Of a stretch of DNA of 64,000 bases, positions 31,496-32,784 are shown in pieces. Position numbers and translations under genes: made by a program. Each line of letters opens with the position of its first letter. Within the stretch, counting starts at the first letter, position 1. The stretch comes from Scatophagus argus (Eukaryota; Chordata; Actinopteri; Scatophagidae). The notes beneath the pieces are model-generated. The model ran no database searches. It was not told the origin of the DNA and was given only the letters and a program-made list of their open reading frames with translations. The stretch covers positions 18,348,001-18,412,000 of the forward strand of contig NC_058501.1 in the NCBI RefSeq assembly GCF_020382885.2. The letters are read 5' to 3'.

Positions 31496-32784
31496 ATGAG
31501 GTCTCTGCTTTTTATCCTGTTCATTGGAGCTGCTTGTAAGTGTGTTACAGTCCTGTAGAGCAGGTTGCCTGTTATGCTTCATGCAGTTTTGTATATTTAT
31601 ACCACATATTTAGAACTGTCTTACATCTGTTTTCAGTTGCCACGGAGGACGACAAGATCGTCGGAGGATATGAGTGCTCACGTCACTCCCAGCCACACCA
31701 GGTGTCTCTGAACTCTGGCTACCACTTCTGCGGTGGCTCCCTGGTCAACGAGAACTGGGTTGTCTCTGCTGCTCACTGCTACAAGTCGTACGTCACTCCT
31801 TGATTTAAAAAACACAATGTTTTGCATGCTGCATGCTGACACCATGAAGCCAAGCCTCCACTAATCCTGTCTTTCCTCTCCAGCCGCATTGAGGTGCGCC
31901 TTGGAGAGCACAACATCCAGATCGACGAGAACACCGAGCAGTTCATCAGCTCCTCCCGTGTCATCCGTCACCCCAACTACAACAGCTACACCTACGACAA
32001 TGACATCATGCTGATCAAACTGAGCAAGCCCGCCATCTTCAACGACTATGTGCAGCCCGTGGCTCTGCCCAGAAGCTGTGCCCCCGCTGGCACCATGTGC
32101 TTAGTCTCTGGCTGGGGCAACACCATGAGCTCCAGTGAGTAGAAAACAATAATGTCAGACAAACCCAGGTCTCTGAAACTGTGCCTACATGCCAACAGTC
32201 TCAAATAATCCATCCCTACTGCACACGTCCCTGTTGTTTTCATCTGCAGCTGTTGACAGGAACAAGCTGCAGTGCCTGGACATCCCCATCCTGCCTGATG
32301 AGGACTGCCGTCGTTCCTACCCCGGCAGGATCACTGAGGCCATGTTCTGCGCTGGTTACCTGGAGGGAGGCAAGGATTCCTGCCAGGTATGTAGCGTCTC
32401 TGATTTTCTCTCACTGCTTTTTCAAATTGGACTACCGGTACATCTTTTCCTCGCACTCTTCTCTAATTCATATTTCAATCTATTGTCATTACGTACCATA
32501 ACTAAGTACTGTAAAGAGCATGATTCTCTTCCTGTCTCAGATGGACTCTGGCGGGCCAGTTGTGTGTAATGGTGAGCTTCAGGGTGTTGTGTCCTGGGGC
32601 ATTGGATGTGCTGAGAAGAACCACCCTGGTGTCTATGACAAGGTAACATTTCAGTGCATCAGCTAAACATATAACTATTACCCTCTTTAATATAATTCCA
32701 CCGCAACAAACTGACTACAATCTTTTCCATTTTTAGGTCTGTGTGCAGATTGAGTGGCTGCGCAACACAATGGCCAGCTATTAA
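31496..32784 (+). CDS. Trypsin(ogen) gene 2, group-I-type with Gly193 replaced by Met
   Basis: Six exons: 31496-31535, 31637-31787, 31884-32134, 32250-32386, 32541-32642 and 32737-32784, again 729 nt or 242 residues. Signal peptide [14 protein letters not shown], activation peptide ATEDDK and mature start IVGGYECS are normal. His57, Asp102, Ser195, Asp189 and 12 cysteines are kept. Exons 2-3 are nearly identical to genes 1 and 3, but exons 4-6 diverge ([46 protein letters not shown]). At the exon 4/5 junction the frame reads CAG/ATG-GAC-TCT, so the active-site motif is Q-M-D-S-G-G-P: oxyanion-hole Gly193 is Met. No other nearby acceptor restores Gly. In human mesotrypsin Arg193 gives inhibitor resistance, so reduced sensitivity to protein inhibitors and altered activity are plausible inferences. 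AATAAA lies at 32866-32871. Gene 2 is divergent from gene 1 and tandem with gene 3. Confidence 0.94.

Follow-up and report, generated by a model that had tools for sequence, protein, structure and literature searches.

A divergent trypsinogen gene of Scatophagus argus carries methionine in place of Gly193

Introduction

The backbone NH of residue 193 is part of the oxyanion hole of serine proteases. A tandem trypsinogen cluster of the fish Scatophagus argus raises the question whether loss of Gly193 can confer inhibitor resistance on a trypsin without adding a charge, as one of its genes, here called g2, encodes methionine at this position. Residue 193 is a known switch of inhibitor resistance, and in the passages drawn from the papers cited below no digestive trypsin other than mesotrypsin is mentioned as having an altered residue 193. 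The cluster offers a natural experiment as well, with three tandem trypsins, where gene conversion appears to have overwritten half of a gene whose other half diverged. Soybean inhibitors occur in aquaculture feed, and an inhibitor-tolerant fish trypsin would presumably be of practical interest. What is new here is an intact trypsin gene with Met193 among several changes of the cleft, located in the part of the gene that, judged by its divergence, was spared homogenisation.

Structure of the g2 gene

The window, which is the whole stretch of 64,000 bp that we analyzed (C9:18348001-18412000; positions without a contig name are counted within it), contains five S1 protease genes. Gene models and sequence comparison identified two neighbouring trypsinogens with Gly193, g1 (28973-30203, reverse strand) and g3 (34739-36151, forward strand). 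Between them lies g2 (31496-32784, forward strand), whose gene model is that of a six-exon anionic trypsinogen with Met193. The remaining S1 protease genes are g4 (40129-41710, reverse strand) and g5 (42715-44901, forward strand), and g5 has another unusual active-site motif at 44630-44766, CNGDSGSP, with Asn192 and Ser197. The window also holds an exon for a Cbl N-terminal domain (56828-57229, reverse strand), a weak DDE_3 transposase match that falls below the curated cut-off (7155-7574, reverse strand) and a run of 30 C (38959-38988) that is likely a weak point of the assembly.

Exon 1 of g2 (31496-31535) encodes the signal peptide, exon 2 (31637-31787) the activation peptide and His57, exon 3 (31884-32134) Asp102, exon 4 (32250-32386) Asp189, and exon 5 (32541-32642) Met193, Asp194, Ser195 and Ile217. 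In exon 6 (32737-32784) the alignment indicated that residues 233-236 and 239 are altered, VQIE..R vs LFND..E in g1 and g3. An AATAAA follows on the same strand at 32866-32871, its first base being the 82nd after the stop codon. Residue numbers were assigned from landmark residues, and we take them to be chymotrypsinogen numbers.

The preliminary description of this DNA had reported that the catalytic triad, Asp189, the activation site and all 12 cysteines of g2 are intact and that the gene is not an obvious pseudogene. Alignment placed His57, Asp102, Asp189 and Ser195 as expected, a count gave 12 cysteines in the mature chain of 222 residues, and the activation sequence TEDDK/IVGG was identical to that of g1 and g3, with a signal peptide as in these two genes. 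The 729-nt coding sequence is open and all introns are GT-AG, and none of the marks of a pseudogene that we looked for in g2 (a stop, a frameshift, a broken splice site or a neutral substitution pattern) was found, so that both statements held. The Pfam Trypsin profile (PF00089) matched g2 with 263.9 bits (cut-off 20.6) over profile positions 1-219 of 220, and it matched g1 with 272.1 bits. By its profile match, triad, Asp189 and 12 cysteines g2 belongs to the S1A trypsins. Gly193 is the rule among these but no defining feature, as it is absent from mesotrypsin. The gene occurs once in the assembly, and a search there for an extra or haplotype copy found none. Upstream of g2 we noted a TATA-like box, TATTTAA, at -47, vs TATAAA at -53 in both g1 and g3.

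Exon 4 of g2 ends in ...TGCCAG at 32386 and is followed by gtatgtag, while positions 32541-32549, preceded by cctgtctcag, read ATG GAC TCT. The protein therefore reads SCQ-M-DSGGP, with the Met193 codon (32541-32543, forward strand) at the start of exon 5, in place and content as first described. A different splice junction had been named as a possible way out of Met193, and no alternative that we checked brings back glycine. If exon 5 started at 32517, after an in-frame AG that lies 24 nt upstream, eight residues (SMILFLSQ) would be added and Asp194 would still be preceded by Met; with the downstream in-frame AGs (32577 on) as the start of exon 5, Ser195 would be lost; and the in-frame GTs 9 and 51 nt beyond the end of exon 4 would merely place extra residues ahead of Met. 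At codon 193 g2 (ATG) differs from g1 and g3 (GGT) at all three bases, so a single base error is no explanation. A mutational route from GGG through AGG (Arg) to ATG had also been proposed, and this gained no support because the Gly193 codons of the compared paralogues are GGT, GGA or GGC and a route through GTG (Val) would be equally short.

Occurrence of Met193

To the 53 regions that were fetched by place we added further loci and the window; the fetched set was chosen from listed Pfam hits and covers part of the genome. Counted by genome coordinate, this sample had 69 distinct D-S-G-G-P-like places, 65 of them with Ser195; the other four were dropped, and three loci (L038, L042 and L064) gave no place. 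Residue 193 was Gly at 63 of the 65 Ser195-bearing motifs, Gln at one and Met at one, the last being g2, which is thus unique within the sample. An earlier survey, which excluded the window and merged identical contexts, had given 62 rows (59 Gly, 1 Met, 1 Gln and 1 Leu); the recount differs from it in including the window and in using another downstream filter. The Leu193 row (L008) was not in a protease frame and was dropped. The Gln193 motif, CRQDSGGP (L019; C9:17159347, reverse strand), belongs by its frame to a complement-type protease, and the neighbouring relatives fetched from C9:17.13-17.15 Mb have Gly193.

When the whole genome (570.7 Mb in 48 contigs, with the gene content of a teleost fish) was searched with the pattern AG-ATG-GAY-WSN-GGN-GGN-CC, two places were found, one of them g2, and the reversed control pattern gave none. 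The second match, at C5:26572213, was rejected as a Met193 protease, having no S1 protease context in any of the three frames. Two other irregular trypsin sequences were seen in the fetched regions. One is a fragment with large parts missing (3420-3880 of L015, C9:12.475 Mb) that lies between two intact cationic-type trypsins and is pseudogene-like; the other is a trypsin-like gene (897-3608 of L016, C17:7.839 Mb) in which Ser replaces Asp189 (GGASSCQ) and exons 2 and 3 could not be joined in frame at the splice sites tried.

The solved sequences nearest to g2 among the PDB matches listed were 2zpq and 1hj8, which we take to be salmon anionic trypsin and hence fish trypsins; they aligned ungapped over 222 residues with 426 bits. 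Gly193 was present in all 2 + 5 PDB alignments that were examined among the matches listed (the best 60 of 538 and the best 60 of 416). In viral and genome contig collections 4 and 42 stretches, respectively, fit a pattern, and none of them was a relative by tblastn. A search of the open-licence literature for Met193 together with trypsin and protease gave no match, and the wider terms Met193, G193M and QMDSGGP gave no trypsin title among the matches listed.

Probable gene conversion in the trypsinogen cluster

Identity between g2 and g1 differs among the parts of the gene, and we observed this mosaic directly in the alignment. It is 80% in exon 1 (32/40 nt), 98% in exons 2 and 3 (148/151 and 247/251 nt), 86% in exon 4 (118/137 nt), 84% in exon 5 (86/102 nt) and 69% in exon 6. 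The counts against g3 are the same for exons 2, 4 and 5 and 245/251 for exon 3. Introns 3-5 of g2 are 62-68% identical to those of g1 and g3 (62-67% for g1) with many gaps, and the exons are without any indel. The synonymous distance between g2 and g1 is 0.05 in exons 1-3 and 0.44 in exons 4-6, and the corresponding values for g3 are 0.10 and 0.44. When the sites of difference were shuffled along the coding sequence, the longest identical run was reached in 1 of 20000 shuffles for g1 and in 4 of 20000 for g3. Exons 2-3 of g2 are best read as homogenised with g1 and g3 by gene conversion, in one direction or the other, and exons 4-6 would on the same comparison be the old, divergent half that escaped it. 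The two neighbours are inverted copies of each other; exons 2-6 and introns 2-5 (28973-30067 in g1 and 35057-36151 in g3) have an identity of 98-100%, in contrast to the diverged upstream region, exon 1 and intron 1, a pattern of strong gene conversion.

An intron that splits the last exon is common to g1, g2 and g3 and is absent from g4, g5 and two trypsins at C9:12.47 Mb that we used for comparison (tA and tB). A DNA tree of exons 4-6 grouped g2 with g1 and g3 (support 98/96), and a protein tree that included salmon trypsin did not settle the branching order of g2, g1/g3 and salmon. Over the 95 residues of exons 4-6, g1 differs from salmon at 14 and from g2 at 21. From these comparisons g2 would be a sister of g1/g3 that has evolved fast, or else an old lineage whose separation preceded that of the salmon line; in both cases its 3' half would have escaped conversion. 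Seven consecutive bases differ between g2 and g1/g3 at 32308-32314; six of them, in the CGT CGT codons of Arg169 and Arg170 (32309-32314, forward strand), replace all six bases of a Glu-Asn pair. The seven differences suggest a single event rather than independent point mutations.

Substitutions around the cleft

Met193 is accompanied by other replacements of the cleft, all encoded on the forward strand. The codon TAC (31993-31995) places Tyr at 99, an S2-pocket position that is Ile in g1, g3 and salmon and Leu in tA, tB, g4 and g5. AGG (32327-32329) encodes Arg175, which is Met in g1, g3 and salmon, and ATT (32601-32603) encodes Ile217, which is Tyr in g1, g3, salmon, tA and tB and Gln in g4 and g5. 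We assume that residues 99, 175 and 217 line S2-S4 and that residue 193 lines the S2' side.

A residue was counted as g2-only where g1 equals salmon while g2 differs. The first 127 mature residues contain a single g2-only state, Tyr99, together with 16 salmon-only, 2 g1/g3-only and no position at which all three differ. The last 95 residues, from exons 4-6, contain 12 g2-only, 5 salmon-only and 3 g1/g3-only states and 6 positions at which all three differ. Within exon 3 all four base differences between g2 and g1 sit in codons 96 and 99. Ser96 of g2 is common to salmon, tA and tB, so the change there was probably on the g1/g3 side, unlike Tyr99, which is g2's own state. States of exons 4-6 that are absent from g1, g3 and salmon include Val150, Pro164, Glu166, Arg169, Arg170, Arg175, Glu178, Met193, Ile217, Asp229 and residues 233-236.

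The basic exosite of thrombin includes positions around 165-175 and 233-240, and by this analogy Arg169, Arg170 and Arg175 may form a new basic patch on g2. The mature chain has 18 Lys plus Arg vs 15 in g1 and in g3, and Asp plus Glu number 23 in all three. In KLK8, residues 96 and 99 close S2, and Tyr99 of factor IXa blocks S2, according to a passage of PMC6048020. Enrichment of the g2 changes at inhibitor-contact positions was not significant (4 of the 16 listed positions, 2.1 expected, p 0.14, with a list of 29 contact positions). One of the 16, residue 159, carried a placeholder number, and residues 223 and 239 were not counted.

Expected properties of the enzyme

The reading that we favor, with belief and doubt about evenly balanced, is that g2 encodes a trypsin that works but has diverged and whose cleft has been rebuilt, probably with altered specificity and less sensitivity to canonical inhibitors. 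Its expression, activity, inhibitor response and subsite effects we infer from its residues and from other proteases. The gene is intact and stands as a divergent copy among tandem anionic trypsinogens; it probably yields a secreted zymogen, and since Asp189 and the triad are kept the enzyme probably still cuts after Lys and Arg. In the substrate groove Met193 would reshape the prime side, Tyr99 would reshape S2, and Arg175 and Ile217 would reshape S3/S4. Residue 193 retains its backbone NH, a part of the oxyanion hole. Steric crowding of the P2' side by Met is expected, so that SPINK-, Kunitz- and Bowman-Birk-type inhibitors should bind less tightly. Catalysis of small substrates should drop but persist, and Tyr99 should favor small P2 residues. 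Gene conversion would have kept exons 2-3 near g1 and g3, with exons 4-6 and the Tyr99 codon escaping.

Experience with other S1 proteases, taken from the passages cited, is in line with these expectations. The bulky Arg193 of mesotrypsin weakens inhibitor binding (PMC5413004); TSV-PA, with Phe193, has reduced inhibitor sensitivity, and a reduction is suggested for viper proteases with Val, Thr or Ala193 (PMC3123349). In factor XIa with a non-Gly residue 193, the 192-193 peptide is reported to be turned, with its NH away from the oxyanion hole (PMC5524700, citing earlier work), and among the 193 mutants Asp and Val lost most activity, Glu and Lys less and Ala least (PMC5524700). Met is unbranched at C-beta and by this analogy groups with Lys and Glu, so catalysis by g2 should be reduced, not lost; the turned peptide makes a badly weakened enzyme possible as well. 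For human Kunitz domains, binding to mesotrypsin is stated to be weaker by 2-4 orders of magnitude than binding to other trypsins (PMC8631645). The affinity for BPTI is about 1e-5 M for mesotrypsin vs 1e-14 M for bovine trypsin, part of the effect being repulsion between Arg193 and Arg17 (PMC8532158). Since Met would bring no charge repulsion against Arg17, we expect inhibitor binding by g2 to be weaker than usual and less extreme than in mesotrypsin. The preliminary description had proposed that g2 became inhibitor-resistant independently or else is a weakened enzyme, and both options still fit the findings. The principle of a bulky residue 193 behind this proposal is borne out in the cited parts of work on other S1 proteases (PMC5413004 and PMC3123349, and PMC5524700 for activity loss), but its framing around a single residue was incomplete, as Tyr99, Arg175, Ile217 and the half-converted gene have to be added.

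Constraint on exons 4-6 and alternative explanations

A serious alternative, which we are nevertheless inclined to doubt, is that g2 is a duplicate with weak expression and relaxed constraint that is heading to decay. Met193, Tyr99 and Ile217 would then be slightly or strongly damaging, and they would be tolerated since g1, g3 and other trypsins carry the function. The 50 differences between g2 and g1 in exons 4-6, polarised by the majority of tA, tB, g4 and g5, bear on this alternative from both sides. We assigned 14 synonymous and 20 nonsynonymous changes to the g2 branch, 3 and 6 to the g1/g3 branch and 2 and 5 to an ambiguous class, and the nine and seven changes of the latter two were excluded from the test. 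The g2 branch has 14 silent changes at third positions, of which 10 are from GC to AT and none is the reverse; this decay of codon usage speaks for the duplicate, as do the differing core promoter and the lack of significant clustering at the cleft. In the set of g1, g2, g3 and salmon, g2 also has the longest branch for exons 4-6 (0.20 vs 0.008, 0 and 0.078). The silent changes and the altered TATA-like box would fit low expression or relaxed selection, and expression of g2 may be low. On the other hand, nonsynonymous changes make up 20 of the 34 on the g2 branch vs 78% expected if neutral (binomial p 0.009, in a rough test that ignores transition bias). Neutral evolution of these exons is disfavored on this count, which indicates that some constraint persists. 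The absence of any stop, frameshift or lost cysteine likewise speaks against decay, but in a neutral simulation the frame of exons 4-6 stayed open in 34% of cases at a distance of 0.12, in about 14% at 0.26, an assumed value, and in 7% at 0.44. Since simulated drift can leave these exons open, the open frame of g2 alone proves little and is a weak argument by itself.

The favored reading of a working, divergent trypsin also has a stronger form, which we consider unlikely. In this form g2 would belong to a fish trypsin lineage that is old and conserved. Its cleft (Met193, Tyr99, Arg175 and Ile217) and exosite-like surface (Arg169, Arg170 and the altered C-terminal helix) would have been rebuilt and then shielded by selection from repeated conversion by the neighbouring genes, yielding a narrow-specificity, inhibitor-proof digestive trypsin that is mesotrypsin-like with a neutral residue.

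It is more doubtful still that g2 truly does the job of mesotrypsin, as a digestive trypsin shaped by selection to withstand and cleave trypsin inhibitors of dietary or endogenous origin. The position is the same, the side chain is long and unbranched, inhibitors can presumably occur in fish diets, and the BPTI affinities quoted above (PMC8532158) show how far binding is weakened in mesotrypsin itself. But Met is uncharged, whereas part of that BPTI effect is the repulsion between two arginines; residue 193 alone does not imply inhibitor cleavage; and Tyr99 and Ile217 would hint at narrower, not broader, substrate use. That Met193 is an artefact of assembly or sequencing, or a rare allele of one fish, is hardly credible, for although a single assembly is the source and conversion-prone repeats are presumably difficult to assemble, all three codon bases differ amid 47 other exon 4-6 differences from g1 and diverged introns, and g2 is present once, on a 26.4-Mb contig.

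Comparison with known systems

To the left of the window, at a distance of about 24-29 kb, there is a hormone-sensitive lipase gene (HSL, lipe-type; C9:18319-18324 kb), and a second HSL gene is on C17. In the notothenioid afgp locus hsl and tomm40 accompany tryp1, tryp3 and tlp, and the tryp1/tryp3 (prss59-type) trypsinogens of this afgp/tlp locus stand in tandem near hsl/lipeb, as here, according to the passages cited (PMC10256766). The g2 locus is probably the counterpart of the notothenioid locus, the HSL neighbour being the observed marker, and we would guess that g4 and g5 may correspond to tlp. If Met193 is common in tryp1/tryp3-type genes, databases may already contain the sequence without its having been noticed.

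Salmon anionic trypsin differs from g2 in having Gly193, Ile99, Met175 and Tyr217. The snake venom proteases share with g2 a natural loss of Gly193 (Phe193 in TSV-PA and Val, Thr or Ala193 in viper enzymes), but they are venom and not digestive enzymes and carry other residues at this position, Met not being named in the cited part of PMC3123349. Mesotrypsin (PRSS3) resembles g2 in that a long side chain replaces Gly193 and Asp189 is kept (PMC5413004, in the passage cited). Its Arg193 is charged whereas Met is uncharged, and g2 has Tyr99, Arg175 and Ile217 in addition and belongs to a fish cluster that has a hormone-sensitive lipase gene close by, its resistance being a prediction. Having the large side chain at 193 and not Arg193 itself, g2 is not classed as a mesotrypsin here.
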